Assembly (NCBI GenBank): GCA_949291125.1
Contig: CASEUJ010000022.1
Location: 1 to 58,963, forward strand
Direction: 5' to 3'
DNA: 58,963 nt
Source: an uncultured Ruminococcus sp.
GTDB lineage: Bacteria; Bacillota; Clostridia; Oscillospirales; Ruminococcaceae
Made by a program: the position numbers and the translations under genes. Positions 19,044-56,066 of this stretch are shown piece by piece (the stretch's first letter is position 1; each line of letters starts with the position of its first letter). The notes under the pieces were generated by a model. That model saw only the letters and a list, made by a program, of their open reading frames with translations. It was not told the DNA's origin and ran no database searches.

Positions 19044-19160
19044 TTATCTCATCTTTCTGCCACGATTCATATTTCGACCACCACAGTTCTGGTCATAGGA
19101 CGGGTTGCAGCAATAAAAGTTCTTTGCATCAAGATCGTCCTGCACCATGCGCAGGGCTTC
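19044..19160 (-). pseudogene. cotJC: cotJC, C-terminal segment (codons 176-212)
   Basis: Minus-strand sequence FGEALRMVQDDLDAKNFYCC and NPSYDQNCGGRNMN is the usual C-terminal tail of CotJC, a manganese-catalase-like spore coat protein. It has no start and is fused upstream to element A sequence. The break falls at the GCTTC core (19156-19160). Joined to the middle segment at 35401-35405 it gives RFGEA|LRM in frame. Ends with TAA at 19044-19046. On its own it cannot be expressed as CotJC. Confidence 0.85.
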
Positions 19161-19184
19161 ACCGAAACGAAGAGATTGAAGCGG
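19156..19184. other. Left attachment site of element A
   Basis: Core GCTTC (19156-19160), then element sequence CGAAACG (19163-19169) and arm ATTGAAGCGG (19175-19184). Joined with the right end it makes a 50-bp dyad: CCGCTTCAAT, 5 bases, CGTTTCG, 6 bases, CGAAACG, 5 bases, ATTGAAGCGG. The centre dinucleotide is TC (GA on the other strand), the expected crossover position for a serine recombinase. Confidence 0.82.
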
Positions 19185-19231
19185 AGTGAGTATGTCGAAA
19201 AGCTGGTAGTGCGGGAATTGTGTAAAAATTG

Positions 19232-19284
19232 CAAAACAAAAGAGAGCTGGCTGCACGAAAGTAAGTGCATCAGCTCTTGTTTTG
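19232..19284 (-). terminator. Long hairpin ending the exopolysaccharide operon
   Basis: The arms CAAAACAA..GAGCTG..TGCAC and GTGCA..CAGCTC..TTGTTTTG pair over about 20 bp with an 8-base loop; on the minus strand the 3' arm is T-rich and runs into ATTTTT. It lies between the last operon gene and the left attachment site. 19285-19375 holds nothing else. Confidence 0.55.
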
Positions 19285-19375
19285 GTTGTCTCTTTCTTCA
19301 TAATCTTTAAATAATCCCAACTATTCCTAATGTCCCATGTGAAAAATCCTAATAATCCATATGTACCAAAAAATT

Positions 19376-19576
19376 TTACACTTTGATCGGACATACCCTC
19401 ACGCACTTACCGCACCGTACACAAAGTATAGGGTCAATTTGCGGATAATCAAATCCTTCTTCATCTTCCACCATGGCAATAGCATTCCGAGGGCAAATGG
19501 AAAAACAAGCTGTACAGCCACAACAATCCTCTTTTTGTTCATATAAAATGGGAATTGGTTTTTGAGATGCGTCCAT
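19376..19576 (-). CDS. Small 2[4Fe-4S] ferredoxin
   Basis: 66 aa with two complete cluster motifs: CCGCTACFSICPRNAI (about 18-33) and CVRCGKCVRVCP (about 52-63). Electron carrier. Starts 1-2 bases after the stop of the upstream FrhB-like gene (GAAAGGG as ribosome site), so it is likely its redox partner. In the second copy of this pair (28665-29807) the ferredoxin is fused to the front of the FrhB-like domain, which supports the partnership. Last gene of the operon. Confidence 0.85.
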   Translation of the reverse strand: MDASQKPIPILYEQKEDCCGCTACFSICPRNAIAMVEDEEGFDYPQIDPILCVRCGKCVRVCPIKV

Positions 19577-19577
19577 G

Positions 19578-20531
19578 TTATTTTTTCCCTTTCTCTAAAA
19601 GTAAACGCTTAGATTTTCGAAGTATGCGTATAAGCTGATGTGTATAACTCTCACTTGTGATTTTTTTTAGGTTTTTCCAGGTTTTCTTTTTTTGATATGC
19701 ATACATTTTTTTGTTTCTTGAAACCGAAGTCATAATATTAGGGTTAAATTTTAAATAATCAGTTGACGTAAGCTCTTGACATACTATATTAGACATTATA
19801 ATATTCCATAATTTCATGCCATATTCTGAATGAACTAAAACAAGCGATATTCCTTTATCATCAAATAATTCAGAATGCATTTTCCAAACACCCCATAAAT
19901 CGGCTAATGTGATGTCAACATCTCTTTGCAAACCTTTAAATCTACAGGAGTAACATGATGGCCGAAGATAGATATCTTGTAAAAAGCCTTTCATATATAA
20001 ATCTTTTTGCTGCGGTTGGCGGTATATTGAACCATCAGAAAAAACAATTTTTAATGAAAATTTCTGCCATCCTTCTGTCTTATCACGAAAGTAAATATTG
20101 GATATTTTTCTTCCATTCGAACGTAAGCTTAAATATTCTTTCCATGTGTTTTGACTTGGCACACCATGACAAACGAAATCAACTGTAATAAGTTTTTTAA
20201 AGTTTTTTCCTAAAAAAGATTTTAACCCAGCTATTTGGCATGGTGTTCCAGAGAACAAAACTAATCGCCCTGATTCTAAAAACAATTTCACTTTTGAAAA
20301 CAAATTTTGCATAGAGCTTTGTACATATTTACTTTGCAAAAATGAAATTACACCTTCCATAGTATCAGAATAATCATGTATTACATTCCAATTTTCATCA
20401 AATTTTGCACCGCACACAATACCACCTTGTGATATTGTCCATTTTGCCAATGCAAAAAATATACCACCGGAAGAACTCTTTCTTCGTACTTCTTCATCCA
20501 CATTATAGCAAGCATATGCTTTTGTTCCCAT
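19578..20531 (-). CDS. FrhB/FdhB C-domain oxidoreductase in polysaccharide locus
   Basis: 317 aa, coenzyme F420 hydrogenase/dehydrogenase beta-subunit-like. Family text: SSSGGIFFALAKW near the N-terminus, FSGTPCQIAGLKSFLG (about 92-107), VDFVCHGVPS, and a cysteine pair CYSCRF followed by DITLADLWGVW. This family appears often beside pyruvyltransferases in bacterial exopolysaccharide clusters, where its reaction is not established; flavin-dependent redox chemistry on a sugar or lipid intermediate is plausible. It lacks the N-terminal ferredoxin found in the paralogue at 28665, supplied here by the next gene. Confidence 0.82.
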   Translation of the reverse strand: MGTKAYACYNVDEEVRRKSSSGGIFFALAKWTISQGGIVCGAKFDENWNVIHDYSDTMEGVISFLQSKYVQSSMQNLFSKVKLFLESGRLVLFSGTPCQIAGLKSFLGKNFKKLITVDFVCHGVPSQNTWKEYLSLRSNGRKISNIYFRDKTEGWQKFSLKIVFSDGSIYRQPQQKDLYMKGFLQDIYLRPSCYSCRFKGLQRDVDITLADLWGVWKMHSELFDDKGISLVLVHSEYGMKLWNIIMSNIVCQELTSTDYLKFNPNIMTSVSRNKKMYAYQKKKTWKNLKKITSESYTHQLIRILRKSKRLLLEKGKK

Positions 20532-20543
20532 GCGTGTCTCCTC

Positions 20544-22094
20544 TCAGCAAAACCGCTTTTCAAGTTGTAACTTTCCCTTTGTCATCCGATCGACCAGCTG
20601 TACACACTGTTTGAATTGCTCTGTCTTTCGATAAAAGACCAGATAAATTATATTCGGCACAATCAAGCAGATTACTCCCCGAACCAACAATGTCAGCCAA
20701 TGCGACATCTGAATCCAATAACAAATGCCAAAACAAACCAAGCAACTCAGCAACACAACCAATGCATAACGAAGCAGATGTTTTAGATAATCTCCAAAAA
20801 ATTTTTTAGGGAAAAGAACCGTAAATAGATTATGCAGCAACCATGGCATTCCCACAAGCAGTGTTGACAACACAGTGGATAAAAGCACACCATAAATGCC
20901 CCAGAATTGCACCATAATCAGGTTCATTATTAAGTTTGCACCAGCTGTCACAAGCGGTCGGAACCGATCCTCATGCCATATTCCAGCAGCATCTTTATAG
21001 GTATTCAGAAGTTGGTTAATTTCATAGATAAAATAATACGCACAGAAACAAATTACTGCAGAAATGCCGAGCATCAAATCTTTGCCAACCCAAAGTTCCA
21101 TAAATGGCTGATACAAGCATAAAAAACTACATGTGCAAAATCCGGCAATCCATGCAATTAAGAAGGTGAATTTTTTTAAATCGTTATAGTTTTTTTCTTT
21201 GGTCTCCACAATGACACTGTTGCCAATTCCTGCGGTGCAAGCATTGAACACGATTGTCACAAGACCAATCACAGAAGTCAGAATGAAGTAGTAATTCTGA
21301 TATACTGCCAGTACAGTAAGTCCCAGAAATGCAGAAATGACAACTGTGTCTGCAGAATTAACAATGACAGCGCCTAATTTTGAAGTGAATAGATCTCGGA
21401 TACGTTGGTTAATATCCTTGACTGCCGTCTTTTCTAGTTTCCCAACGGGTTTATAATCTGGATACGCCCTTGTTGCACGAACTGCTGTGATTACATTGGT
21501 CAAAATCTGAGCAAGGAGCATTGCCATAATGTACAAGTAATAATCCTTGATCCAAAAAATAACTGCAAATTGCAAAAGATAACGAATGGTACTGGTCAAA
21601 ATCGAGATTTTACTGACAACGTCCACACGCTGATGTGCCTGAAATAGTGCATTTTTGTAGGCAAAGAGCCAGTAAGAAAGTACCGTAGCTGCTAGATTCA
21701 ATAGGTACAGCACATAGATATTCAGTTCGGGAGGAAGATCACTTTTAACCAGTGCCGGAATAAATGGCGTCAATACCGCTCCCACAACGGCAATAACGCA
21801 ACCAATTACTCGATAATATGTACGATACAAGCGCATCAAGGCACAGATTGTTTTAGTATCATCCTCTACGATAGGCTTGTACATACCATAGACCATGGCA
21901 CTGCCGACTCCAAGTTCTGCCAAATTCAGTACTTGAAGAATAGAAGTGAACAAGCTGTCCAGACCCAAATACTCCACACCCATAAAATAGATCATGGCAG
22001 TGCGCAGCAAAAATGGCATAGCAATTTGGTAGATTTTGAGCGCCATACCGAAGACAATATTTCGGGTGGCGTTTTTTGTGCGTTCGAGTTTCAT
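20544..22094 (-). CDS. Polysaccharide repeat-unit flippase (Wzx-like)
   Basis: 516 aa, about 14 membrane helices, of the MOP superfamily (polysaccharide synthase/Wzx). Moves undecaprenyl-diphosphate-linked repeat units across the membrane for polymerisation outside. N-terminal KNIVFG-like amphipathic stretch RNIVFGMALKIYQIAMPFL is typical. Pairs functionally with the Wzy-like polymerase at 25308. AAAGGTG lies before the ATG. Confidence 0.88.
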   Translation of the reverse strand: MKLERTKNATRNIVFGMALKIYQIAMPFLLRTAMIYFMGVEYLGLDSLFTSILQVLNLAELGVGSAMVYGMYKPIVEDDTKTICALMRLYRTYYRVIGCVIAVVGAVLTPFIPALVKSDLPPELNIYVLYLLNLAATVLSYWLFAYKNALFQAHQRVDVVSKISILTSTIRYLLQFAVIFWIKDYYLYIMAMLLAQILTNVITAVRATRAYPDYKPVGKLEKTAVKDINQRIRDLFTSKLGAVIVNSADTVVISAFLGLTVLAVYQNYYFILTSVIGLVTIVFNACTAGIGNSVIVETKEKNYNDLKKFTFLIAWIAGFCTCSFLCLYQPFMELWVGKDLMLGISAVICFCAYYFIYEINQLLNTYKDAAGIWHEDRFRPLVTAGANLIMNLIMVQFWGIYGVLLSTVLSTLLVGMPWLLHNLFTVLFPKKFFGDYLKHLLRYALVVLLSCLVCFGICYWIQMSHWLTLLVRGVICLIVPNIIYLVFYRKTEQFKQCVQLVDRMTKGKLQLEKRFC

Positions 22095-22121
22095 AGGGTC
22101 ACCTTTTCTGAAATCAATTGA

Positions 22122-23255
22122 TTATCGAAATCCAATCCAGGATAACAGTTGTAAGCCGAATTTGTTTTTGGCAAAAATATGGTTTACAAAATGTACCACA
22201 CTAAAACTGATACCAACAAGCAAAATCCAAGTTAGAATGTAATGCAATAACCACATCTTGGAAATGCCCAGAATATCAAAGAGCTTTTGAATAAATATGA
22301 GAAAGAACCAATGGATGTAATAGATCCCATAAGAGTCGTCACCCAGGCGTTTTAAGAAGCCAAGCTTTTCTGCATTACGCGTGGCTTTCGCATGTATCTG
22401 ACGCACCCACAAAATCAGCATGAATGTATACAAGAAGGTGCCAAATTTAATCTGGCTGGTGATGAGATCGTTGCTACACCCAAGTCCCAACAGAAGGAAG
22501 GCTTCTGCAATGGCGATACCCAGTGCGGTCAGAACGGCAATGGGGTTGCCGAAATAACGCTGTGCCGTTTTGACACGCCGGACGCAGGCCGGATCCGCTT
22601 TGATGCGCAGTCCTAGATAATAGAAACAGAACCACGCCGGAAAGAAGGTTTCATACAGCATGGGCAATGCTCCGTTGACGAGGTTGTAGAGGTACAAGCC
22701 GAGGATCCACAGAGGCGTAAGACCATAGAGCAGCAGAGAGCCGCGGGAACTTTTTCGAATCAGCCGAATCAGAATCGGGGTCAGAAGCGTCAACTGCATC
22801 AGAACAACAATGTAATACAAAGGAGTAGACGCCTTTCCAACAAGAATTTTTAATAGTATGTTTACCCCGTCTATTTCCTACCCGTTGCTGAGATTTCTTG
22901 CAATATTTATGCCTGTATAAAAGACAGACCACAAGAGAAATGGAACTACCAGGCGCTTAACACGCCGAAAGATATATCCCACTGGGTTTGCTATGCATTT
23001 GTCCGAATTAACAAAGTAGCCAGAAAGAAAAATAAAAATCGCTACCGGAAAGTTGATTACTTGCCGTATCACCAAATGGGTGGTAAATTCAAATGTTCCA
23101 GCGCCATAAGCGATGCCGCTAGAGCAATGAATTAACATTACTGCCAAAATACATATGCCTCGAATAATTTGCCAGAATTGATCTTTTTGGATAGGTGAAA
23201 TTTTTGTTGGCATTGTATCAATCTTTCCATTCAAATTGTTGCATTCGAATTGCAT
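22122..23255 (-). pseudogene. Acyltransferase 3 interrupted by in-frame TAG
   Basis: 376-codon integral-membrane acyltransferase (OafA/WecH type) that would O-acetylate or O-acylate the polysaccharide. N-terminal FWQIIRGICILAVMLIHCSS holds the family's conserved His; C-terminal segments carry GIYYIHWFFLIF. Codon 126 (22880-22878) is TAG, in the context NLSNG-stop-EIDG. The frame then stays open for 251 codons to TAA at 22122. No frameshift or other stop is seen. This is the second in-frame TAG of this kind in the window. Either recently inactivated, misread in sequencing, or read through. Confidence 0.82.
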
Positions 23256-23267
23256 GAGATCACCTTT

Positions 23268-24296
23268 TTAGTCAGGAATAGATTTTAAGTTTTCTTTTAG
23301 GAATTGAAGAGAATCTGCGCGCCTTTCTGCCCAGATCTGATCTGCAGAAGTGTCAAACATCCCAATATTCTCCCAAGTGAAATTGGCATTTGTAAATCGA
23401 TGATTCTCTAAATGAAATGTAGAACACAGCTCATCAATACGAGAAGACATATCCTGATCATGGCTAACACGTTCAAAAACAACAAATGGCCTTTTATAAA
23501 TGAACGAAAGCACAGATGCATGAAAGGAATCAGTACATACCATATCAGCATGATGGATCAAGTATACAAACTCCGCTGGTCCTATTGCCAAACCACTTTT
23601 TTTACAGTCTACCACTTGTAAATGATGTTTTTGCGCATATTGCTGGATCTCATTTTCATGTAAATTTTTACCTAAAAAATAGGTAAATAAATAGGGTGAC
23701 TTTTTCATTTTTCGTGGTTTCTTTTCTAATTGTGTCCAGTCTTCTCTTGATAATAACAGCGTCGGATCTAAAGCTAAAAATGCATCTTGACCAGTAAGTT
23801 CCTTTACGATTTTTACACCACTTTTTTCCCGAACAGAAATAGACCGGATCTGCTTCAGGTAAGAACCAATACGACTGCGCTCTGATTCTGGAATCGTATC
23901 AATGCCAAAACTAGCCGCATATGATATTTTCTTTTCTTTTCGAATAAAAGGTAAAAAATCTTCTTCCCCTATAAAATCAAAATCTATGTTCCAAATTTGA
24001 TCACTTCCGATGACGAAGCAATCATAGTGCTTTTCTATGTTTTTGCTTATTTTATTTTTCGACACCACATCTCTGCTCCATTGTATTTTGCGATAAAAAG
24101 CATAAAAATTGGAGCGACTATCTCTTTTAATCAAACTCCGAAAGTTTTTCTTTAAGAAATACATTATTGTTTGTGGTTGACGATTAAGCGTTTCAACAGA
24201 AAGTCCAAGATGCTTTAAAATTTCTTGCAAAGCATAATTTTGCAGACGATTTCCGTAGTTAAAACTACATATAGTCAATATTGCAATTTTTTTCAT
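23268..24296 (-). CDS. Polysaccharide pyruvyltransferase family protein (1)
   Basis: 342 aa from the ATG at 24296, six bases after AAGGAG. N-terminal SFNYGNRLQNYALQEIL, mid-protein VIGSDQIWN (about 96-104), and the C-terminal TDSFHASVLSFIYKRPFVVF with the conserved His typical of CsaB/WcaK-like proteins. Family members add a pyruvate ketal from phosphoenolpyruvate to a sugar, giving negative charge. Three family members are in this operon. Confidence 0.85.
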   Translation of the reverse strand: MKKIAILTICSFNYGNRLQNYALQEILKHLGLSVETLNRQPQTIMYFLKKNFRSLIKRDSRSNFYAFYRKIQWSRDVVSKNKISKNIEKHYDCFVIGSDQIWNIDFDFIGEEDFLPFIRKEKKISYAASFGIDTIPESERSRIGSYLKQIRSISVREKSGVKIVKELTGQDAFLALDPTLLLSREDWTQLEKKPRKMKKSPYLFTYFLGKNLHENEIQQYAQKHHLQVVDCKKSGLAIGPAEFVYLIHHADMVCTDSFHASVLSFIYKRPFVVFERVSHDQDMSSRIDELCSTFHLENHRFTNANFTWENIGMFDTSADQIWAERRADSLQFLKENLKSIPD

Positions 24297-24328
24297 ACGC
24301 AACTCCTTAGTAAAAATCTACTTATATT

Positions 24329-25285
24329 TTATGATACATTTGCTTTTCTAAGTTTTTTATACAGTACTGGGAAAAAAATTATGAGTATAATTCGCAAACG
24401 TGTTTTGAAATCACTTTCTTTGCATTGCTTTTTTAACTGTTTTTTTATCAATACAATTTGTGATTTGTTTTCTTTTTTATTATGATATAAATCAAGAATA
24501 GCAGTAGATTTTAGTGTAGCAGAAAAATAATTTGCAGACTTCAATAAATCCGGAAAATTTATTCGACACTCATCTACAATTGCATTTAATGCTTGTAGGA
24601 TAGAAAGTTTTTTTTCGTCATAACGTCGATGGCAAAGACTGCTAGATGATATGAAGTAATTATATAAAATTCGATCATTGACAGCAATACGGGAACAAGT
24701 TCTCACAAGTTGTGTTAATATAAGCACATCTTCGCATAAGTGAATATCTTCCCGAAATCGAATAGTGCCATCTTTTAAGATAAAGAGTCTTTTTTCAAAG
24801 AGTTTGTTCCACAGCACACCCATAAATTTATAATGAAATATATCCGAAAGCAACTGTTCTCTTGTGATTGTTTTCTCCTGTTCATGATAAGCAGCATCTT
24901 CTGTTTTATCTTCATATACCAGACGATATCCACAAACAGAAATGGAAGCATTTTGTTCTATCATATTTGTCAAAAGATCTTCGTACATAGTTTTTTCTAT
25001 ATAGTCATCCGAATCAACGAACCCAATATATTCCCCTCTGCACACTTCTAATCCACAATTTCTTGCAGAAGATGCACCACCATTTGGCTTATGAATTACT
25101 TGAATACGAAAATCTTTTTTTGCATAATTATCGCAAATTGCACCCGATCGATCCTTGGATCCGTCATCTACCAAAATAATTTCTAAATTGGTATACGTCT
25201 GATTTATAATGCTCTCAATACATCTGGTGATTGTATTTTCACAATTATAAACTGGGATGATTATACTAATCAACTTTTCTTGCAT
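24329..25285 (-). CDS. Glycosyltransferase family 2
   Basis: 318 aa. GT-A fold: ISIIIPVYNCENTITRCIES at residues 6-25, ILVDDGSKDRS, NGGASSARNCGLE, and the metal-binding FVDSDDYI (DxD region, about 90). Transfers a sugar from an NDP donor to the growing lipid-linked repeat unit at the cytoplasmic face. The donor and linkage cannot be told. The C-terminal 100 residues are basic, AT-rich and variable. Confidence 0.9.
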   Translation of the reverse strand: MQEKLISIIIPVYNCENTITRCIESIINQTYTNLEIILVDDGSKDRSGAICDNYAKKDFRIQVIHKPNGGASSARNCGLEVCRGEYIGFVDSDDYIEKTMYEDLLTNMIEQNASISVCGYRLVYEDKTEDAAYHEQEKTITREQLLSDIFHYKFMGVLWNKLFEKRLFILKDGTIRFREDIHLCEDVLILTQLVRTCSRIAVNDRILYNYFISSSSLCHRRYDEKKLSILQALNAIVDECRINFPDLLKSANYFSATLKSTAILDLYHNKKENKSQIVLIKKQLKKQCKESDFKTRLRIILIIFFPVLYKKLRKANVS

Positions 25286-25307
25286 ATATCCTCCACTTAT
25301 GATCTAG

Positions 25308-26447
25308 TTATCCCAAAATTTTCTTTTTTCTTTTAGATAATATTTCCATGATTTTATATTTATTATCAGGCTGTAACAACTGAACAAAAAAGAATAGAGT
25401 AAAGTTGTATTTTAATGAGCACCAAGAATTTTCTGTAAACGCATATAATGCCATTGCAATAACTGCGATAATATAGATATACTGCTCTCGTCTAACTAGT
25501 TCTCGCACCATTGCAAAATGCAAAATTATGAAAATTAAGCTTCCGACAATTCCAAAAACCAAAAGTAATTGTACATATCCTGAATCTACAACTAAATATT
25601 GGTAAATATCCAACTCTTTATAATTTGTAGAACTGCTAATCAACCCGATATCCGTATGCTCTAAAATTAAATTTGTCAATGTAAATCTATGACTCAGCAT
25701 TCTATCCATAGCATCTACCACTTCACGGTATTTGACGCCATCTCCTATAAACAAACCGTATCTTACACTCAACGGCAGATACAAACTAAGAAACATCAGA
25801 ACAATGGGTAAATATTTTCCCAATATATTTAATACTTTTTTTATTTGGAAACATTTAAATCCAATTGTTAAAAGCCAGATTAACAAACTCGTAATCAGAC
25901 CTGTTCTCGACCCGGTAATCACAAAGCAAAGCAATATTACAAACAGCATTGCAACCAATTTGTACATATTAATTTTTTCCCAGTAGATGCACAGAAAAAG
26001 CAAAATCAAATCCACAAATGTTAACATCAATAAATTGCCATGCGAAAACCCTAAAACAATTCTTCCACCGTTGGCATTCATTATAATCGACAAAAGCGCC
26101 ACACTCACTGTTAAAATTAATTTTTCAAAAAACGTGACTTTTAGAACATTTTGCAAATCTAAATCTCTTATTGCAATAACTGTTATAATTAATACCAATA
26201 TTCGTGAATCTTTTGTAATATAGAAATTATAAAAAAATATTGCAATTAATACTGCCAAAAATACAAGTTTTTTCGGCTGATACTTATTTTTGAGAAAAAT
26301 GTGCAGTAAAGACAACATTAAGGACACCAGCAATAAAATTGTAAGTATGCCTGTTTGAAATATGGTATCGCTTAACCCATAATATAGATTTGTTAAAATA
26401 ATTGAACAATAAATTAATATATTGCTTTTTTTTATCGTGATATTCAT
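25308..26447 (-). CDS. O-antigen polymerase-like (Wzy) membrane protein
   Basis: 379 aa, about 10-11 hydrophobic helices with one larger outer loop (about residues 225-290), the usual shape of Wzy/EpsG polymerases. Sequence identity in this family is low, so the call rests on topology and on its place between glycosyltransferase genes with a Wzx-like flippase in the same operon. It would join repeat units outside the membrane. Confidence 0.72.
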   Translation of the reverse strand: MNITIKKSNILIYCSIILTNLYYGLSDTIFQTGILTILLLVSLMLSLLHIFLKNKYQPKKLVFLAVLIAIFFYNFYITKDSRILVLIITVIAIRDLDLQNVLKVTFFEKLILTVSVALLSIIMNANGGRIVLGFSHGNLLMLTFVDLILLFLCIYWEKINMYKLVAMLFVILLCFVITGSRTGLITSLLIWLLTIGFKCFQIKKVLNILGKYLPIVLMFLSLYLPLSVRYGLFIGDGVKYREVVDAMDRMLSHRFTLTNLILEHTDIGLISSSTNYKELDIYQYLVVDSGYVQLLLVFGIVGSLIFIILHFAMVRELVRREQYIYIIAVIAMALYAFTENSWCSLKYNFTLFFFVQLLQPDNKYKIMEILSKRKKKILG

Positions 26448-26470
26448 TTTAACAGAATGTCTCTCCTCTT

Positions 26471-27595: not shown

Positions 27596-27604
27596 ATTTC
27601 TCCA

Positions 27605-29807: not shown

Positions 29808-29853
29808 TGCCTTTAAACTAATTTATTTTGTTTCCTAGTCAATATTGTAAAAA

Positions 29854-32513: not shown

Positions 32514-32525
32514 GCCACATACCCC

Positions 32526-45258: not shown

Positions 45259-45327
45259 AACTCTAATACATCAGAGATCGGATGGATCTCTCTGCATTGG
45301 GGCTAAGCCCGATCAAAGATTCATGCT

Positions 45328-45363
45328 CTGCGTCCACAGAAGACATCATTTCTGTGGACGCAG
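45328..45363 (+). other. Perfect 13-bp intercistronic hairpin
   Basis: CTGCGTCCACAGA (45328-45340) and TCTGTGGACGCAG (45351-45363) pair perfectly; there is no following T-run, and GH36 starts 24 bases later. More likely an RNA-stability or processing element that sets different transporter and enzyme levels than a terminator. Confidence 0.7.
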
Positions 45364-45387
45364 TTATTGCAAAGGAGATGTGTAATA

Positions 45388-47583: not shown

Positions 47584-47605
47584 AACAGCAGGGAGGAATC
47601 AAAAA

Positions 47606-48919: not shown

Positions 48920-49911
48920 TGAAAATTTTAGTTTTTGGCGGAGCAGGATATATTGGTTCTCACACTGCACTGGAATTGGTACGTGCCGGAGAACAGGTCA
49001 TAATTGCAGACAATCTGGTCACAGGACACAGACAGGCAATTCCAGAAGGTGTCACATTTTATGAAGGTGATCTCCATGACCGCGCATTTTTAGACCGAGT
49101 ATTTCAGACCGAACAGATTGATGCTGTCATTCACTTCGCTGCCTTTTCACTAGTGGGAGAAAGCGTGACAAATCCGCTGAAATATTATGACAACAATCTG
49201 TGTGGCACAAAGGTACTGCTAGATGCGATGGTAGCAAATCATGTGGACAAGATCGTCTTTTCCTCCACGGCTGCCACCTACGGAGAGCCGGAAAATATTC
49301 CGATCCTAGAGACAGACCGCACCTGCCCCACCAACCCTTATGGGGAGACAAAACTGGCAATGGAAAAGATGTTCCACTGGACTGGGCTTGCCCACGGCAT
49401 GCGTTATGTTTCGCTGCGATATTTTAACGCCTGCGGTGCAGACGCCAGTGGCACGATCGGCGAAGATCACAATCCGGAAAGCCACCTCATTCCTCTGATC
49501 CTGCAGGTACCCAACGGAAAGCGAGAAACCGTCTCCATCTTCGGGACAGATTACGACACACCAGATGGCACTTGCATCCGGGATTATATTCATGTCACAG
49601 ATCTGGCACAGGCGCATATTTTAGCGGTGCAATATCTGGCAAACGGCGGCGAAAGCGATATCTTTAACCTGGGCAATGGCGTCGGCTATTCTGTCCGTGA
49701 AGTAATTGAGACAGCCCGCAAGGTGACAGGGCATCCGATCCCCGCCGTAGAAACGCCCCGTCGAGCGGGAGATCCTGCAAGACTGGTGGCATCCAGCGAA
49801 AAAGCACGCCGTGTACTGGGCTGGAATCCGGTGCACGATAGCTTAGAAGAGATTATCGCCAGCGCATGGAACTGGCACCACAATCATCCGAACGGGTTTG
49901 CACAGCAGTGA
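48916..49911 (+). CDS. galE: UDP-glucose 4-epimerase
   Basis: 331 aa extended SDR. NAD loop GGAGYIGSHTALEL at residues 7-20, SSTAATYGEP (catalytic Thr/Ser region) and the active-site NPYGETKLAMEKM (YxxxK, about 140). Interconverts UDP-galactose and UDP-glucose. Start overlaps galK by 4 bases. Confidence 0.95.
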   Translation: MMKILVFGGAGYIGSHTALELVRAGEQVIIADNLVTGHRQAIPEGVTFYEGDLHDRAFLDRVFQTEQIDAVIHFAAFSLVGESVTNPLKYYDNNLCGTKVLLDAMVANHVDKIVFSSTAATYGEPENIPILETDRTCPTNPYGETKLAMEKMFHWTGLAHGMRYVSLRYFNACGADASGTIGEDHNPESHLIPLILQVPNGKRETVSIFGTDYDTPDGTCIRDYIHVTDLAQAHILAVQYLANGGESDIFNLGNGVGYSVREVIETARKVTGHPIPAVETPRRAGDPARLVASSEKARRVLGWNPVHDSLEEIIASAWNWHHNHPNGFAQQ

Positions 49912-49925
49912 AAAGAGGGATGCAC

Positions 49926-51428
49926 ATGATTTGCCAGAATATTCAGAATTTACTTGACTATGCGATCTGCAAACATCTGATTGAGCCGATCGATGAGATT
50001 GTTGTGCGCAATGCACTGATGGATCTGTTCCACATCGAAACATGGGAAGTACCCACAGAACCTAAGACAGATCGACCAGCGTCGATCGACGCCATTTTAG
50101 AGGAACTTGTCGACTACGCCTGCGCTCAGGGCATGATCGAAGACACCAATGGCTCCAGAGATCTGTTCGACACCCGCATTATGGGTTATCTGACGCCATA
50201 CCCCCGAGAAGTGGCACAGAAATTTCGGGATGCCTATGCGGTATCTCCGAAGGCGGCGACAGACTGGTATTATCGCTATAACCAGGATGTGAACTATGTC
50301 CGTGCCGGTCGAATCGCAAAAGATCTGAAATGGACCTACACCTGTGATTATGGAACACTGGATATCACTATCAACCGTTCCAAGCCGGAAAAAGATCCCC
50401 AAGATATTGCCAAAGCTCGGACGCAACAATCAGTGTCTTATCCCAAATGTCAGCTTTGCCGGGAAAACGCAGGCTTTGCTGGTACTGCCACTCATCCGGC
50501 CAGACAGAATCTGCGTCCGGTTCCCATCACACTACAGGGCATGCCATGGGAATTACAATATTCTCCCTATGGCTATTATCCTGAACATTGCATCGCCTTT
50601 TCCGACACCCATGCGCCTATGGTAATCGATGGGGCAGCTTTTGAAAAGCTCTTTGATTTCGTGGATCTCTTTCCCCACTACTTCATCGGCTCTAACGCCG
50701 ATCTGCCCATTGTCGGCGGCTCAATTTTAAGCCATGAGCACTTCCAAGGCGGCTGTTATACATTTGCAATGGCAAAAGCACCCATAGAAACCGCATTCGC
50801 CATTTGTGGCTATCCGATGATCCATGCCGGCATTGTGAAATGGCCTATGTCCGTCATCCGTCTGGAGAGCACAGACCGCAATGCACTGGCGGCAGCTTCG
50901 AATATAATCTTAGAAAAATGGCGGGCGTACAGCGATCCAGCCAGTGGGGTTTATGCAGAGACAGATGGCACGCCCCACAACACCATTACGCCCATTGTAC
51001 GGAAGGTGGGAGAGCCGTATCAAATTGACTTGGTGCTACGCAACAACCGCACCACGCCAGAACGCCCCCTGGGGATATTCCACCCGAACCCGTCGCTGCA
51101 TCATATCAAAAAAGAAAACATTGGGCTGATCGAAGTTATGGGACTTGCCGTTTTGCCATCACGCTTGTCGGAGGAACTGGACGCGGTGAAACATGCGCTC
51201 TTATCCAGAACAGATCTCCGGAAAGATCCCCGCACGGCAAACCATGCGGATTGGGCAGAAACACTCCAAAGGCGCCACCCGGAATTTTCACCGGAGAATG
51301 CAACAAATATCATTCGTGCAGAAGTGGGAAGTGTATTTGAACAGGTATTGCATGACGCCGGTGTGTTCAAAACAGATCTGGCAGGACGCCAAGCATTTTC
51401 ACGGTTTTTGGATACACTGACATCTTGA
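49926..51428 (+). CDS. galT: Galactose-1-phosphate uridylyltransferase, class II
   Basis: 500 aa from the ATG at 49926, 6 bases after AGAGGG; the ATG at 49920 is too close to it. The longer frame to 49866 overlaps galE. This is the Firmicute class II GalT: a large N-terminal domain, a CQLCRENAGFAG cysteine pair and the active-site SHEHFQGG near residue 280 instead of the HPHPH of the E. coli enzyme. Exchanges UMP between UDP-glucose and galactose-1-phosphate. Confidence 0.93.
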   Translation: MICQNIQNLLDYAICKHLIEPIDEIVVRNALMDLFHIETWEVPTEPKTDRPASIDAILEELVDYACAQGMIEDTNGSRDLFDTRIMGYLTPYPREVAQKFRDAYAVSPKAATDWYYRYNQDVNYVRAGRIAKDLKWTYTCDYGTLDITINRSKPEKDPQDIAKARTQQSVSYPKCQLCRENAGFAGTATHPARQNLRPVPITLQGMPWELQYSPYGYYPEHCIAFSDTHAPMVIDGAAFEKLFDFVDLFPHYFIGSNADLPIVGGSILSHEHFQGGCYTFAMAKAPIETAFAICGYPMIHAGIVKWPMSVIRLESTDRNALAAASNIILEKWRAYSDPASGVYAETDGTPHNTITPIVRKVGEPYQIDLVLRNNRTTPERPLGIFHPNPSLHHIKKENIGLIEVMGLAVLPSRLSEELDAVKHALLSRTDLRKDPRTANHADWAETLQRRHPEFSPENATNIIRAEVGSVFEQVLHDAGVFKTDLAGRQAFSRFLDTLTS

Positions 51429-51468
51429 TTATTTTGCAGGCATACACCGCATCATTCAATCAAAGAAT

Positions 51469-51513
51469 AACAGGACACTTGTATCATGAATCGCATACAG
51501 GTGTCCTGTTTTC
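51469..51513. terminator. Terminator of the gal operon
   Basis: AACAGGACACTTGTAT (51469-51484) pairs with ATACAGGTGTCCTGTT (51495-51510, one mismatch), followed by TT; the convergent SDR gene probably shares it. Confidence 0.8.
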
Positions 51514-51528
51514 ACATAAAATCTGTTT

Positions 51529-52359
51529 TTACGCCTCCGGCTTCAATGGACCGTAGAAATAAGATGCCGTCGCACCACCATCGATCAGGAAGTCTGCACC
51601 GGTAATAAAACTTCCCTTTTCACTCATCAACAATTCTGCCACATTTGCCACTTCATCCGCAGTTCCCGGGCGACCGGCAGGACATCTGGCAAACATATTT
51701 TTGTAGAAATCACCGCGTGGTCCATTGAACTCATCCAACGCCAACGGCGTCACGATAATCCCCGGAGAGATCGAATTGATTCGTGCCCCCTTATCGCCCC
51801 ACCTTACGGATTCTGCCATAACACGCTTTTCATTACAGCGTTTTGCCAACTGGTATGCATGCAGTGTATCGCGAATATGTCCCGGCTGGAGCATCTTTAG
51901 CTGCAATAGTTCTTCTGTCGGGGTACAGGCAAGCTGTTCATCCTCTTCCGGCGCCAGCGCCGGCATACGATGTCCAGACTGGCTTGAAATCGTCACACCA
52001 ACGCCGCCAGGTGCGATGATCTTCCCAACCTCTTCAAGTAAAACTGCTGTGCCATACAGGTCAACTCTCAGGATCGTCTCAATGGATGCCTGACTCGGAG
52101 ATACGCCAGCAGCATTCACCATCTTCGTGATCGAACCATAATTTTGTGCCTGAGCAATCATTTTCAAAATAGATGCTCGTGAAGAGAGATCCATTTCCAT
52201 CCCGATTGTATCAAAGCCGGCTTCGTTCATGATCTTCGAAATTTCATTTGCATTTTCTGGATTTTTATCGCCAATGATGATCTTCATGCCATACCCGGTT
52301 CTTCTTGCAATCGCCATGCCAATCTGACCAGCGCCGGTCAGGATCATAACTTCTTTCAT
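51529..52359 (-). CDS. Short-chain dehydrogenase/reductase
   Basis: 276 aa from the ATG at 52359, 7-8 bases after AAAGGAAG. Rossmann motif TGAGQIGMAIA (about 8-18), VNAAGVSPSQA (about 88), catalytic Tyr-Lys in YQLAKRC (about 170-176), SPGIIVTPLA and a C-terminal ITGADFLIDGG. NAD(P)-linked oxidation/reduction of an unidentified alcohol or ketone. Begins a group with the cyclophilin-like lipoprotein and hydrolase genes, though separated from them by about 400 bp. Confidence 0.85.
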   Translation of the reverse strand: MKEVMILTGAGQIGMAIARRTGYGMKIIIGDKNPENANEISKIMNEAGFDTIGMEMDLSSRASILKMIAQAQNYGSITKMVNAAGVSPSQASIETILRVDLYGTAVLLEEVGKIIAPGGVGVTISSQSGHRMPALAPEEDEQLACTPTEELLQLKMLQPGHIRDTLHAYQLAKRCNEKRVMAESVRWGDKGARINSISPGIIVTPLALDEFNGPRGDFYKNMFARCPAGRPGTADEVANVAELLMSEKGSFITGADFLIDGGATASYFYGPLKPEA

Positions 52360-52416
52360 AGAAATATCTTCCTTTCTGATCCGCGATGCACATAAAAGCA
52401 CTGCAACAGCAGGCAT

Positions 52417-52753
52417 TGTGCAAACACTCTGTGTTCAATAATGCTTTATACTCTTAATTATACTCTGAATACAAAAATAAGCAATTCCGTTTTTGATGAT
52501 TTCAAATAAGTTTTGCTTATCCGAAAAGCACAAAGCCATACAGTGCAGCGATTTACGAAACAGATGTACCCGAAGTCCCCATATCGTTTTACCGGAGCAG
52601 CCAATCTTAAGGCATCATAAAACTACGCACAAACACTTTTGGCATCCATGCGTAGTTTTTAGAAATGTGGCAAAATAAAATACCTAAGGCAATACCACAC
52701 AAAGGCCTCCTGACGGCTTTGTGTGGTATTGCCCTAAATCGCGATCTCCTGTG
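52417..52753. other. Gene-free stretch with two long hairpins
   Basis: No supported gene. 52619-52660: AAAACTACGCA pairs with TGCGTAGTTTT and ends in T-run (a terminator-like hairpin). 52688-52733: 17-bp perfect stem from GGCAATACCACACAAAG and its complement around a 12-base loop. The second may be a repeat/MITE-like unit; no second copy was noticed here. Promoter for the SDR gene not certain. Confidence 0.5.
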
Positions 52754-53320
52754 TCATTGCACAATCGAAAATATCACCGTAGCGCTGTTATCCCCAAGTG
52801 CGTCTAACAGCTCGGAGGCATCTTCGATATGTCCGATCCTAGTATAACTGTATGGAGTGGAAAATGAGTCATAAAACAGAACAATACAGCTGTCTCCGTA
52901 AAGCATGATATCGCCTGCATAGATGTTCCTGACTCTTTCGGGCGTGCAGGGCAGTGACGTATCCAGATAGAAATATTTCTCATTGCCGTTGAGTTCAGAC
53001 ATTTCCAATGTTAAAGGAAGCAGATTGTATAGTGCCTGAACAGTATCATTATCTTCCAACGTCACGGAAAATATCTTGCCATTTATCGATAGCTGCATTT
53101 CATATGCCTCCTTTATCTCAGGATCTTCCATCGGTGTGGTTGCTTCTGGTGTCAATAGCACCATCTCAGTTTCTAAAACAAAACGATTGCTCGTTTCAAT
53201 CAGACTGGTTTCCGTTTCCGTCACAGTCTGATCTATATCATTCCCACAGGCGGTTAGTGTACACATCAAAAGACCGGTCACAGCCGCAATTAGCTTGTTC
53301 AAAACGTTGTTCTGATTCAT
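52754..53320 (-). CDS. Cyclophilin-like lipoprotein
   Basis: 188 aa from the ATG at 53320. Lipoprotein signal peptide with lipobox CTLTACGN (Cys about residue 25), a short Thr/Glu-rich linker, then a cyclophilin-like domain (about 75-188): INGKIFSVTLEDNDTVQALY, LPLTLEMSELNGNEKYFYLD, IMLYGDSCIVLFYDSF, YTRIGHIEDASELLDALG. Family proteins usually sit beside aldo-keto reductases, flavodoxins or hydrolases under LysR control, as here; biochemical role unknown. Extracellular, membrane-anchored. Confidence 0.85.
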   Translation of the reverse strand: MNQNNVLNKLIAAVTGLLMCTLTACGNDIDQTVTETETSLIETSNRFVLETEMVLLTPEATTPMEDPEIKEAYEMQLSINGKIFSVTLEDNDTVQALYNLLPLTLEMSELNGNEKYFYLDTSLPCTPERVRNIYAGDIMLYGDSCIVLFYDSFSTPYSYTRIGHIEDASELLDALGDNSATVIFSIVQ

Positions 53321-53361
53321 ACAGACTTTCTTGACCAGATGCAAAAATGGCATGAAACACA

Positions 53362-54348
53362 TCACTTCAAGTACTCGCCATAGAATGCCGCAAGCTTATC
53401 GAAAGGGATCACCTTTTTCTCGCCGCCATCATAGAGATCTGTGTGTGTCGCGCCCGGGATAATGAGAAGCTCCTTGTTTTCTCCCGTGAGCATTTTAAAT
53501 GCGTCTTCGCCAAAGTAGCGGGAATGTGCCTTTTCTCCGTGCATCACGAGCACTGCAGAGCGGATCTCATGGGCATAGGAAAGAATTGGCATATTGATAA
53601 AAGAAAGGGAAGAAGTCTTGTTCCAGCCGCCATTGGAATTGAGCGAACGAGGATGATATCCGCGGGAGGTTTTGTAGTAAGCATGATAATCCTTCACAAA
53701 GTCGGGGGCATTCTCCGGCAGCGGATCAACTACACCGCCACCAAGCGCATATTCGCCGGACTTGTAGTCCTCAATACGCTGTGCATTGAGTGACTGTTTC
53801 ATTGCAAAACGTGCGTCGGCATTATCAGCTTCATCAAAATAGCCCTTTGCATTGACTCTTGTCATATCATACATCGTAGAAGCAACAGTCGCTTTGATCC
53901 GGGTGTCGATCGCTGCGGCGTTGATCGCCATACCACCCCATCCGCAGATCCCGAGAATGCCGATCTTTTCCGGATCTACCTGCTCCTGCACGGAAAGAAA
54001 ATCTACAGCGGCACAAAAATCCTCTGTATTAATATCCGGAGAAGCCACATACCGCGGCTGTCCGCCGCTTTCTCCTGTATAGGACGGGTCGAATGCGATG
54101 GTCAGAAATCCACGTTCTGCAAGTGTCTGTGCATAAAGACCGCTGCACTGTTCCTTGACCGCACCGAATGGTCCGCATACGGCAATCGCCGAAAACGAGC
54201 CAGTGCTATGCTGTTTCGGAATGTACATATCAGCAGCCAGCGTGATCCCATAACGATTGTGAAATGTCACTTTTTTGTGATCAACTTGTTCCGACTTTGG
54301 AAAGGTCTTATCCCACTCTTGTGTCAGATGCAGCATTTCTTCTTTCAT
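53362..54348 (-). CDS. Alpha/beta hydrolase
   Basis: 328 aa. Serine-hydrolase fold: VCGPFGAVKEQCSGLYAQTL after the first strands, FDPSYTGESGG, the catalytic nucleophile region GILGICGWGGMA (Cys or the motif G-x-C-x-G in place of G-x-S-x-G, about residue 137), and a late LIIPGATHTDLYD with the catalytic His (about 308). The apparent Cys nucleophile is like dienelactone-hydrolase relatives. Start overlaps the stop of the upstream 81-aa gene (ATGA). Confidence 0.85.
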   Translation of the reverse strand: MKEEMLHLTQEWDKTFPKSEQVDHKKVTFHNRYGITLAADMYIPKQHSTGSFSAIAVCGPFGAVKEQCSGLYAQTLAERGFLTIAFDPSYTGESGGQPRYVASPDINTEDFCAAVDFLSVQEQVDPEKIGILGICGWGGMAINAAAIDTRIKATVASTMYDMTRVNAKGYFDEADNADARFAMKQSLNAQRIEDYKSGEYALGGGVVDPLPENAPDFVKDYHAYYKTSRGYHPRSLNSNGGWNKTSSLSFINMPILSYAHEIRSAVLVMHGEKAHSRYFGEDAFKMLTGENKELLIIPGATHTDLYDGGEKKVIPFDKLAAFYGEYLK

Positions 54349-54590
54349 GATTCAGATACCTCCATCATTTTTTTAAGTGTGTAGATGAAATAGTCAAGGC
54401 AATCCAGTTGCGCCGTATAACTGTGAATATGGTCAAGCAACGCTCTCCGATGCACAGCAAGCAGTTTTTCCAGATCCGAATAACGCTTTTCATCCAGCAT
54501 CTGCACACAACGATCTATACTATCCGCGCAAAAACCTGCATCACTCAGATTTTCTCGGATAACCGCAGTTTTATCTGTCGCATTTGCCAT
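54345..54590 (-). CDS. Small helical protein before the hydrolase
   Basis: 81 aa, all predicted helix: DAGFCADSIDRCVQMLDEKR and RRALLDHIHSYTAQLDCLDY. It resembles the C-terminal coiled-coil/effector region of MerR-type regulators without the DNA-binding part, but no family is assigned with confidence. AAGGAG precedes the ATG; 4-base overlap with the hydrolase gene argues they are translated together. Confidence 0.7.
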   Translation of the reverse strand: MANATDKTAVIRENLSDAGFCADSIDRCVQMLDEKRYSDLEKLLAVHRRALLDHIHSYTAQLDCLDYFIYTLKKMMEVSES

Positions 54591-54619
54591 GCTCTCATCT
54601 CCTTATGTTTTGTAAGCTC

Positions 54620-54648
54620 AGTATAACACAGAAAAGCAGAAATGTAAA
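54620..54648 (-). promoter_or_regulatory. Promoter of the hydrolase group
   Basis: Minus strand TTTACA (54648-54643), 17 bp, TATACT (54625-54620). Confidence 0.75.
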
Positions 54649-54665
54649 ATACCTATTTTTAATTG

Positions 54666-54704
54666 CTTGTGATGCTTTACAAGAATCACAAAATATTGTA
54701 TAAT
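54666..54704 (+). promoter_or_regulatory. lysR promoter with LysR-type box
   Basis: TTTACA (54676-54681), 17 bp, TATAAT (54699-54704). A dyad CTTGT (54666-54670) / ACAAG (54679-54683), a T-N11-A-like site, overlaps the -35, as expected for LysR autoregulation and divergent control. Confidence 0.7.
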
Positions 54705-54731
54705 ATTTCTATATTACAGCGGAGGTACAAG

Positions 54732-55604
54732 ATGGAGATCAGAGTATTGCGCTATTTTCTTGCGATCGCAAGAGAAGAAAATATGACAAGAGCCGCCCAG
54801 CAGCTACATATTTCACAGCCTTCTCTTTCGAAGGAAATCAAAAAGCTTGAGGAAGAATTAGGGCACCAACTGTTTATCCGTACGAATAAAAACATGCGTC
54901 TGAATGATGAAGGCATGCTTCTCCGAAAAAGAGCCGAGGATATTCTTGCAATGGTTGATAAAACAACAGAAGAATTCAATCAACTCGACAGCATCATCGG
55001 TGGAGAGATCCACATTGGATGCGCAGAGAGTTATCTGATCAAATATCTTGCACAAAGCATTCGATCATTTCAAAAACAGTACCCGGATTTTATCTTCCAC
55101 ATTTTCAGCGGCGATACTGATCCTGTCACAGAGCGTCTTGACCGCGGCCTGCTCGATCTTGCTGTAATCGTCGAGCCACCAAACTTGTCAAAATATAATT
55201 ACCTCACAATTCCCGAAAGCGACAAATGGGGCGTCGTCATGCGGCGTGATAGCCTGCTTGCGCAAAAAAAGGAAATCACCTTTGAGGACTTATATGGACT
55301 GCCGCTATTTTGTTCTAAGCAATCCATTCAGGTGGACTTCCCTCGATGGTGCGGCGAAGATATGGACAAGTTGAATTTTGCAGGAACATTCAATCTTGCT
55401 TATAACGGCTCGATATTTGTGAAAGAGGGGCTAGGATATCTACTGACCTTTGAACATCTGATCAATACAAGTGAAGAAAGTGGACTATGCTTTCGTCCGA
55501 TCACACCTACGCTAGAAACCAATATGTATATTATCTGGAAAAAGTATCAGGTATTCTCTCCGATCGCTGAGCTGTTTCTGAAGCGACTGAAATCAGAGTT
55601 CTGA
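54732..55604 (+). CDS. LysR-family regulator
   Basis: 290 aa from the ATG at 54732, after GGAGGT. Winged HTH at the start: LRYFLAIAREENMTRAAQQL, HISQPSLSKEIKKLEEELG (about residues 5-45). The C-terminal effector domain has IHIGCAESYLIKYL and EGLGYLLTFEHL. Divergent from the hydrolase and cyclophilin-like genes and probably activates them; effector unknown. Confidence 0.9.
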   Translation: MEIRVLRYFLAIAREENMTRAAQQLHISQPSLSKEIKKLEEELGHQLFIRTNKNMRLNDEGMLLRKRAEDILAMVDKTTEEFNQLDSIIGGEIHIGCAESYLIKYLAQSIRSFQKQYPDFIFHIFSGDTDPVTERLDRGLLDLAVIVEPPNLSKYNYLTIPESDKWGVVMRRDSLLAQKKEITFEDLYGLPLFCSKQSIQVDFPRWCGEDMDKLNFAGTFNLAYNGSIFVKEGLGYLLTFEHLINTSEESGLCFRPITPTLETNMYIIWKKYQVFSPIAELFLKRLKSEF

Positions 55605-55651
55605 CGACTCGCTGTGAAGCCTTTCGAATACCTACTATCCATCATATTTGT

Positions 55652-55846
55652 TTACCATGGATGATCATATGCCCATTGCAAAGCCTTTACCACGTCGTCA
55701 TAGTGCTCTGGATTCTGACGCACAAAATCTGCGACTGTGACTCCAATGCGCTTAGCAATGATTTCCCATGCACATTCTCTCTCCTGTACGGACAATGCAT
55801 TTAGAAGCATAAGATCATCGTTGTTTTGAATCATGCTTGTATGCAT
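55652..55846 (-). CDS. 64-aa small protein at the right end of element B
   Basis: ATG at 55846, eight bases after a full AGGAGG, so translation is likely. Charged, helical sequence: NDDLMLLNALSVQERECAWE, then IIAKRIGVTVADFVRQNPEH, ending DDVVKALQWAYDHPW. No family recognised. Ends about 120 bp from the right core, and a CATAGATT motif (55875-55868) stands at the -10 position. Size and place would fit a recombination directionality factor or another element-maintenance protein; this is inference only. Confidence 0.7.
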   Translation of the reverse strand: MHTSMIQNNDDLMLLNALSVQERECAWEIIAKRIGVTVADFVRQNPEHYDDVVKALQWAYDHPW

Positions 55847-55904
55847 GCAGATCACCTCCTGGGTGATAATCTATGCATGACTGCATGTACATTTTCATCA
55901 TCGA

Positions 55905-56066
55905 TTAGTCTTGATTCCTTAAATGTGCGTATAGAAGTACATCGAATCTGTATTCTCTGTTTTGGATACCAGGACCGCCAAGCTGTGAGATAATATACTT
56001 CGCCGTCTTCGCATTAGGCGTCTTGATGCGAACGGGATATTGCAATTTTTTCTCATATACCCACAT
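55905..56066 (-). pseudogene. cotJC: cotJC, N-terminal segment (codons 1-32)
   Basis: ATG at 56066, directly after the cotJB stop and behind AGGAGG. MWVYEKKLQYPVRIKTPN and AKTAKYIISQLGGP are the normal CotJC N-terminus. After codon 32 the frame crosses the core (55980-55970) into element B and ends after 21 foreign residues at TAA (55905). Spliced to 35830 and then 19155 it becomes a 212-codon gene whose length is divisible by three with no internal stop. As it stands it could make a 53-aa peptide. Confidence 0.92.
55953..55980. other. Right attachment site of element B
   Basis: Arm TTCTCTGTTTT (55953-55963), six bases, core CAGGACCGCCA (55970-55980), then cotJC sequence. Confidence 0.85.

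Follow-up and report, generated by a model that had tools for sequence, protein, structure and literature searches.

The spore-coat gene cotJC is divided by two serine recombinase elements in an uncultured Ruminococcus and is recurrently split in its family

The question raised by this locus is whether a spore-coat gene that lies in three pieces can be made whole, and by what means. The window analysed here (the whole stretch of 58,963 nucleotides, contig CASEUJ010000022.1 of an uncultured Ruminococcus sp.) carries cotJC as the third gene of the cotJABC operon, directly downstream of cotJB and cotJA. A preliminary description had reported three cotJC pieces in the correct order on the minus strand, gaps of 16 and 20 kb between them, and a short direct core inside cotJC at the bounds of each gap. 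We confirmed the positions and the gap sizes, and the cores were found as direct repeats of 11 bp (core 1, with two identical copies and no third in the window) and 14 bp (core 2, with copies that differ at two positions), which correspond to the GGP codons (site A) and the FGEA codons (site C) of cotJC, respectively (Table 1). Recomputing the join at the cores gave the frame that had been described, 639 nt and 212 codons without internal stop, whichever version of core 2 is used. A truncated 44-codon Mn-catalase gene piece on another contig of the same genome (C29) is 41% identical, and no recombinase of the clades seen at cotJC breaks was found in the surrounding 6 kb; the piece belongs to a separate gene and is not part of the split cotJC.

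Table 1 Features of the split cotJC locus, in window coordinates
Feature	Position	Strand	Details
cotJC segment 1	55970..56066	-	codons 1-32, core 1 at its end
cotJC segment 2	35401..35841	-	codons about 30-177, core 1 to core 2
cotJC segment 3	19044..19169	-	codons about 172-212 and stop, core 2 at its start
Core 1, segment 1 copy	55970..55980		CAGGACCGCCA on +
Core 1, segment 2 copy	35831..35841		
Core 2, segment 2 copy	35401..35414		GCTTCGCCAAAACG on +
Core 2, segment 3 copy	19156..19169		GCTTCACCGAAACG on +
cotJB	56067..56327	-	PF12652, 1e-29
cotJA	56314..56598	-	PF11007, 6e-15
Element 1	35842..55969		site A, about 20 kb
LSR of element 1	35875..37407	-	510 aa, site-A clade
Element 2	19170..35400		site C, about 16 kb
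LSR of element 2	33802..35313	+	503 aa, site-C clade
Small ORF upstream of element 2 LSR	33610..33720	+	36 codons, ribosome-binding-site-like stretch

Each gap holds a large serine recombinase (LSR) gene adjoining a core, as had been proposed, while the distances given at the time, 88 and 34 bp, are corrected here to 87 bp (element 2, 35313 to 35401) and 33 bp (element 1, 35841 to 35875). Both LSR genes are complete reading frames, with Resolvase, Recombinase and zinc-ribbon domains all above cut-off. The Pfam scan agrees with the earlier view that the cargo includes surface-polysaccharide and galactose genes: element 2 carries a polysaccharide cluster (glycosyltransferases, pyruvyl transferases, a flippase and an acyltransferase), and element 1 a GH31, LacI and AraC regulators, an ABC sugar transporter, a GH36 alpha-galactosidase, GalK, an epimerase-family protein, GalT and others. 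The ORF at 25308-26447 has no Pfam match. The Pfam scan of element ORFs found no phage structural or replication genes (22878-23255 lay outside it), and a phage origin of the window elements was rejected for the scanned ORFs on this ground. The closest integrase to the element 1 LSR in the phage collection, at 45%, belongs to bajarodcaudo virus 3; since the motif GGnGGnCC is absent within 4 kb of that integrase, cotJC is unsupported as the target of this virus. Matches of the element 2 LSR in the same collection are all below 60%. Within the stretches compared from R. callidus and three further named relatives, matches to the window of at least 35% were confined to cotJA, cotJB and cotJC.

We then considered a sample of 297 genomes of the family, in which split copies were counted by hand. 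cotJC is split, with no full-length copy, in 78 of them (two ambiguous genomes, G300 and G098, are excluded from this count), and 19 of the 78 have three or more pieces; up to four DNA segments per genome occur among those tallied, and some relatives carry three elements in one cotJC. The preliminary description would have been contradicted by an intact gene in every relative, with boundaries that do not match the cores. The opposite was found: although cotJC is intact in R. callidus and others, relatives are broken at both cores of the window and at three further positions, and pieces with the same end positions are also among the matches listed from the order and class. The splitting of cotJC is not unique to the window genome, and is a recurrent, multi-site condition in the family.

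The five break positions each have their own LSR clade. An LSR longer than 400 aa lies within 400 bp of 45 of the 54 breaks with both ends recovered. On a tree of 57 LSRs (ORFs shorter than 400 aa excluded), the four site labels require three changes, which is the minimum, against a mean of 31 after shuffling (0/200 shuffles as low). The site A and site C clades have support of 100/100, and the site D LSRs form two clades that correspond to two neighbouring cores. One second LSR, L175_134, which is 3.3 kb from its break, was kept in the tree and excluded from later analyses.

The ends of the elements were also compared as pairs, and the predicted circle junctions of both window elements are attP-like dyads. 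The paired ends of element 1 have a dyad score of 15, equalled or exceeded by 26 of 2242 mismatched pairings, and those of element 2 a score of 17, reached by none of the 2242; the dyads at both are more than chance. Over 53 end pairs the mean score is 13.8, as compared with 10.6 for the 2242 different-site pairings (Mann-Whitney p about 2e-15), with the site-B pairs of relatives scoring little above controls. In IMG/VR nothing matches the exact attP junction predicted for either window element, and the excised form was not seen there.

That cotJC is cut at the same places in relatives suggests a gene stitched together in DNA at sporulation, and we consider a skin-like developmental excision, in which one gene holds several independent elements, to be the probable explanation. 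Two independent LSR elements would have integrated at the conserved sites A and C, each LSR recognising its own junction pair. In the sporulating mother cell the LSR would be switched to excision, probably by a small directionality factor, and would recombine its two cores, so that the element is released as a circle closed by an attP junction and the attB scar left behind is normal coding sequence; two such excisions would restore the 212-codon cotJC. The forespore would retain the elements, and the split state would therefore be inherited. Within this model we infer the activity and specificity of the recombinases, excision itself, its timing and cell type, and the directionality factor.

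For that factor, the ORF at 33610-33720 is a candidate; it did not cluster in the small-ORF comparison and resembles ORFs before two other site-C LSRs by eye only. A small ORF preceding or close to the LSR is conserved in nine genomes at site B, four at D1, two at C and three at D2 (there on the opposite strand), while none before site-A LSRs is conserved in more than two genomes. We also scanned for promoters. A sigma-E-like -10 element precedes 3/11 site-A LSRs (1/100 shuffles gave as many), 2/11 at site C (12/100 shuffles), 1/11 at D2, 0/12 at B and 0/8 at D1, and with a two-part sigma-E score p 0.05 was reached by 1/11 LSRs at A, 4/10 at B (several of these being related sequences), 1/10 at C, 0/9 at D1 and 0/10 at D2. 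The region upstream of cotJA, intended as a positive control, scored no better than shuffles with the two-part score, which makes the sigma-E scan a weak one; it did not find a consistent sporulation promoter before the LSRs. Sigma-A-like promoters precede 6/12 site-B and 3/11 site-C LSRs (0/100 shuffles each).

These vegetative-looking promoters agree with a different explanation, in which cotJC is a favoured attachment site for phages or islands, dispensable in its carriers, and the elements excise solely to transfer themselves. Among 50 viral contigs that carry site-A LSRs and no cotJC, an attP-like dyad surrounds a relaxed cotJC-like core in 20 (4/1000 at random), and the exact core GGnGGnCC lies no more than 250 bp from the LSR end in nine (background 0.031). 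The same search near LSR ends was negative for the site-B core (0/22, background 0.160) and for the site-C core (3/59, background 0.050). Several site-B LSRs are nearly identical between species despite widely differing cotJC, and so seem to have moved recently, and a second full-length Mn-catalase is present in several carriers (G004, G006, G012 and G013). Against dispensability, the split copies retain their frames and are under selection. As synonymous sites are saturated in most genus-wide dN/dS pairs, we used pN/pS in chosen within-genus pairs, which is 0.014-0.150 in nine pairs with both members split at the same site (the insertions in the two members of a pair may in some cases have arisen separately; element genes are in common in G026/G143 and G131/G206) and 0.078-0.182 in five pairs with intact cotJC. 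Within genera, in these other species, copies split at the same site are under purifying selection like intact ones. Moreover, a third LSR element in the window's genome divides another sporulation gene, dpaA, into complementary profile positions, 6-268 and 268-291. The selection on split copies and the dpaA split also count for the excision model, as do the SpoIVA and Spo0A_C matches found. We judge the attachment-site explanation unlikely.

Old insertions or rearrangements that left dead pieces or separate polypeptides are a distinctly poorer account. In G114, G020, G158 and G146 the pieces are inverted, out of order or hundreds of kilobases apart, the window cargo is of ordinary sugar and glycan genes, GH36 matches in eight relatives lie on contigs other than those with cotJC (in fragmented assemblies), and there is decay in G006, where two in-frame stops interrupt the LSR at the break and a frameshift and two stops disrupt cotJC. 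This joint decay in G006 also speaks for the excision model. The breaks, however, are inside conserved motifs and at fixed cores, and a first piece of 32-33 codons would be unlikely to function alone. Neither do the pieces decay in the tested pairs: between 1.7 and 7.3 stops per lineage would be expected under neutrality, and the sole stop counted, in G107, falls on the side of the break that belongs to the element. The same holds for the stops in G126 and G205 (codon 207 for one of those in G205), and those of other genomes, at codons 199-204, are near the end of cotJC, as judged by position.

Phase variation, with excision serving growing cells as a heritable on/off switch instead of taking place in the mother cell, is very improbable. 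The vegetative-type promoters at sites B and C and the many relatives with intact cotJC could be read in this way, but cotJC is a coat gene, listed under sigma-E control in the account of B. subtilis in PMC3416734, and SPbeta and the C. difficile skin element are described in PMC5595907 as having constitutive LSRs and yet excising at sporulation. An assembly or binning artefact is hardly credible, for although the window is a contig of a 47-contig assembly, 87% complete, this single contig spans both gaps, and the same break positions are found in the one-contig assemblies G131 and G146, in large contigs of G240 and G158, and on viral contigs such as the 5.5-kb L279 (site-A LSR, cotJC 25-189, site-C LSR).

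The comparison with skin and SPbeta made in the preliminary description is apt for the excision model. In the skin/sigK elements of B. subtilis and C. difficile, as here, a sporulation gene of the mother cell is interrupted by a serine recombinase element, with in-frame rejoining at a short core and an attP circle, as predicted for cotJC; the RDF gene skr of skin overlaps the start of spoIVCA according to PMC6957869 and PMC5025042, an arrangement that several small ORFs near cotJC-break LSRs resemble. The present case differs in the gene, in having two elements (three in some relatives) and in its five site-specific LSR clades. SPbeta in spsM is described as having an LSR with a constitutive promoter and a phage-type attP, its excision restoring the gene (PMC4191935, PMC6957869), whereas the window elements have no phage genes in the ORFs scanned and their LSRs have relatives on viral contigs. 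The gin element in gerE of B. cereus, as presented in PMC5595907, shares non-viral cargo, an LSR, dyad att sites and a short common core, but is a single 28.6 kb insertion with three recombinases, as compared with one LSR found in each window element. Sporulation genes are likewise interrupted by vfbin (spoVFB), vrin (spoVR) and yin (yabG), in the accounts of PMC4191935 and PMC10747680, although in different genes and with one element per gene, and vfbin is the nearest parallel to the dpaA element. Convergence of distantly related LSRs on one gene is also described by Durrant et al. 2022 (PMC10083194), where the targets named are Mg-chelatase and prolyl isomerase, with no developmental reading, and 'catalase' is absent from the main text. 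We found no report of cotJC interruption in openly licensed PubMed Central.

Where pieces are inverted, reordered or distant, simple excision is insufficient. We can suggest, tentatively, that in many Clostridia cotJC is a multi-segment gene, assembled anew in each mother cell by orthogonal serine recombinases at five fixed sites, with some segments inverted or reordered. If true, bacteria would here splice one gene at the DNA level, and dpaA would add another split gene in the window's genome. The published split sporulation genes that we found have, as their sources describe them, one element each, while cotJC is targeted repeatedly by five recombinase clades, in some genomes by two or three together, across the family and apparently beyond. 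The survey also yields LSRs with matching predicted attB and attP sites. It offers many natural replicates for asking why mobile elements settle in mother-cell genes and how several excisions are coordinated, and bears on whether spore-formers of this kind need DNA rearrangement in order to make spores.

The preliminary description placed cotJC of the window in three pieces on the minus strand, in the right order, with a large serine recombinase (LSR) gene in each intervening element, adjoining a core. All of this is borne out by the sequence and by a domain search, which found the three expected domains in each LSR; each gene lies near a core, one at 33 bp and the other at 87 bp, and cotJB and cotJA are found directly upstream of cotJC. 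The core of element 1 (at site A, one of the cotJC break positions) is an exact 11-mer, and that of element 2 (at site C) has 14 bp with two differences between its copies, both silent, so that the choice of copy does not alter the 212-residue protein. The window spans all of contig C22 and belongs to a 2.2-Mb assembly of 47 contigs, from a relative of Ruminococcus callidus, since the CotJC of a congener (G001) is identical to that of R. callidus ATCC 27760.

Excision would yield two products, the rejoined gene site (attB), with cotJC restored, and the circle junction (attP). The predicted attP has TTCTCTGTTTT...AAAACAGAGAA flanking the core in element 1 and CCGCTTCAAT...ATTGAAGCGG in element 2. 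In the genomes fetched, the mean dyad score of 53 element end pairs is 13.8 versus 10.6 in the controls, which are 2242 pairings of ends taken from different sites (p about 2e-15). Element 2 of the window scores 17, above all 2242 controls, and element 1 scores 15, a value reached by 26 of 2242. The lowest-scoring class is site B (8 to 14), and the degenerate element of G006, a genome of the same genus, scores 9.

A PF05067 match is present in 15 of the 16 genomes of the genus. Reading from the tables, cotJC is in at least two pieces in eight (G000, the window's own, and G003, G004, G006, G009, G011, G012 and G013) and intact in two (G001 and G010), while the remaining six have a single fragment, only the paralogue (a second Mn-catalase gene) or nothing. 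Of 297 genomes sampled evenly across the family, 199 matched the R. callidus CotJC, and 114 of these, picked for several or weak matches, were searched again. By hand tally, at least two complementary pieces without a full-length copy occur in 31 of 48 and 44 of 66 re-searched genomes; the rest are 24 with a full or nearly full-length gene, 11 with a single fragment, two ambiguous (G098, G300) and two with the paralogue only (G037, G070). Adding G000, G006 and G012 brings the hand tally of split genomes to 78. Most of the other 80 matching family genomes look full-length among the matches listed. At least three pieces are found in 19 of the 78, and four in G020, G126, G143 and G251; G231 may have four too. 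Pieces on separate contigs could be assembly breaks in single cases, but the break positions are identical throughout the split genomes. CotJC is matched in 129 of 157 genomes at the order level and 108 of 157 at the class level, both with pieces of the same end positions among the matches listed. Outside the order, at least 13 genomes from nine families have two complementary pieces among the matches listed, counted from the cotJC pieces alone.

The breaks fall at five sites with conserved core motifs: A (GGP), D1 (GTE), D2 (ELAH), B (AAE) and C (FGEA), and these motifs presumably include metal-ligand residues. In a tree built on 57 LSRs from the DNA retrieved around the breaks, the site-A (12) and site-C (11) LSRs each form one side of a 100/100 branch, a 100/100 clade holds 13 of the 14 site-B LSRs (the 14th is not at a break), and the site-D LSRs form two clades, of 9 and 11, matching the neighbouring cores D1 and D2. 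The four site labels require three changes on this tree, the minimum, against a shuffled mean of 31 (as low in 0 of 200). An LSR of more than 400 aa lies within 400 bp at 45 of the 54 breaks for which both ends were retrieved; at the other nine it is about 1.5 kb off (G059, G069), 2.2 kb off (G158), broken (G006) or, in five cases, absent from the stretch fetched. Of 56 LSRs, 54 have the 3' end turned towards the nearest break, and 50 lie no more than 110 bp from it. The smallest insert observed, about 2 kb, consists of an LSR and about 450 bp (G207), and one reaches 91 kb on a single contig with the pieces in the right order (G028). The latter genome also has a second LSR, 3.3 kb from the break.

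Other arrangements were also observed (table). Pieces on opposite strands, with a site-specific LSR present, would need inversion for joining. In G158 and G146, where about 11 kb and 674 kb separate the pieces, the joined gene would end up, after recombination, on a circle containing the stretch between them.

Loci with a split sporulation gene or an unusual arrangement (G, genome; C, contig; L, locus)
Feature	Genome:contig	Position	Locus
Split dpaA (dipicolinate synthase A; DpaA model NF006162)	G000:C15	35183-41243	L483
Truncated second Mn-catalase gene (44 codons)	G000:C29	1817-1948	L002, L245
Second LSR, tandem, upstream of site-B LSR; long branch outside site clades	G028	134-1717	L175
Site-A LSR at break, two in-frame stops	G006:C19		L142
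cotJC pieces on opposite strands of one contig	G114:C83		L148
cotJC pieces on opposite strands of one contig	G020:C23		L165, L166
cotJC pieces on same strand, wrong order	G158:C1		L151, L233, L234
cotJC pieces on same strand, wrong order	G146:C1		L235, L236
Additional cotJC 3' end, about 4 kb from piece already reaching about codon 203	G091:C28		L169
Additional cotJC 3' end, about 4 kb from piece already reaching about codon 203	G246:C29		

Across nine within-genus species pairs in which both members are split at one shared site, pN/pS is 0.014 to 0.150, and in five intact within-genus pairs it is 0.078 to 0.182; between genera the values are higher, 0.228 to 0.332 (three split pairs) and 0.203 (one intact pair). 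The sole stop counted in the pairs, in both rows of G107, lies on that side of the break where the element is, and neutral evolution would have produced about 2 to 7 per lineage. The insertions in G026/G143 and in G131/G206 are probably old, because each pair shares element genes near the LSR. G006, where cotJC carries two stops and one frameshift alongside the stop-bearing LSR, is a natural test of whether the split gene is still used.

The window's genome has seven LSR matches, three of them inside sporulation genes (around the other four, the neighbours were scanned in part); SpoIVA and Spo0A_C are matched there too. The dpaA parts cover model positions 6-268 and 268-291 and are 5,167 bp apart, and both score below the cut-off, as expected of fragments. 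An LSR between them ends about 195 bp before part 2, and dpaB follows. The dyad score is 15 (equalled or exceeded in 37 of 3000 random pairings) at a core of only 3 bp, chosen as the frame-restoring point. Around the truncated Mn-catalase gene, no LSR of the cotJC-site clades was found in 6 kb, nor was its remainder found by a PF05067 search of the assembly.

A sigma-A-like promoter stands before 6 of the 12 site-B LSRs and 3 of the 11 at site C (in each case matched by 0 of 100 shuffles), and a sigma-E-like -10 before 3 of the 11 at site A, the window's among them (1 of 100 shuffles). In SPbeta and the C. difficile skin the LSR is reported to be constitutive and the recombination directionality factor (RDF) sporulation-timed (PMC5595907), and in the B. 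subtilis skin skr overlaps spoIVCA (PMC6957869). Small ORFs that precede the LSR or overlap its start are conserved at sites B (nine genomes), D1 (four) and C (two), and are RDF candidates only.

IMG/VR contigs carry LSRs related to those of sites A, B and C (for A and C, the best 80 only), and 29 contigs carry cotJC pieces. At most 600 bp separates the LSR end from a piece in 27 of 89 (A), 8 of 35 (B), 7 of 89 (C), 2 of 3 (D1) and 11 of 12 (D2) LSR matches, each sited by best match and with some contigs counted twice. Fifty site-A contigs lack cotJC at the LSR. In 39 of them a dyad is present no more than 150 bp from the LSR end (random windows: 82 of 1000), and in 20 the dyad loop contains GGnGGnC (4 of 1000). 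Viral contigs thus carry some of the site-A recombinases, with a predicted attP centre similar to the cotJC core. For site-B and site-C LSRs the core test on IMG/VR contigs was negative.

Searches of openly licensed PubMed Central listed no title or abstract opening on an interruption of cotJC, and none is described in passages of PMC5595907, PMC4191935, PMC10747680, PMC10083194, PMC3533761, PMC6957869, PMC3416734, PMC5025042 and PMC8456093. By the tests possible, the elements of the window share the anatomy of the known sporulation gene-intervening elements, to which we liken them (skin, SPbeta, vfbin, vrin, gin, yin), and would work like them. New features are the interrupted gene itself, cotJC, the multiple elements that it can hold, the five clades specific to their sites and the wide occurrence of the phenomenon.
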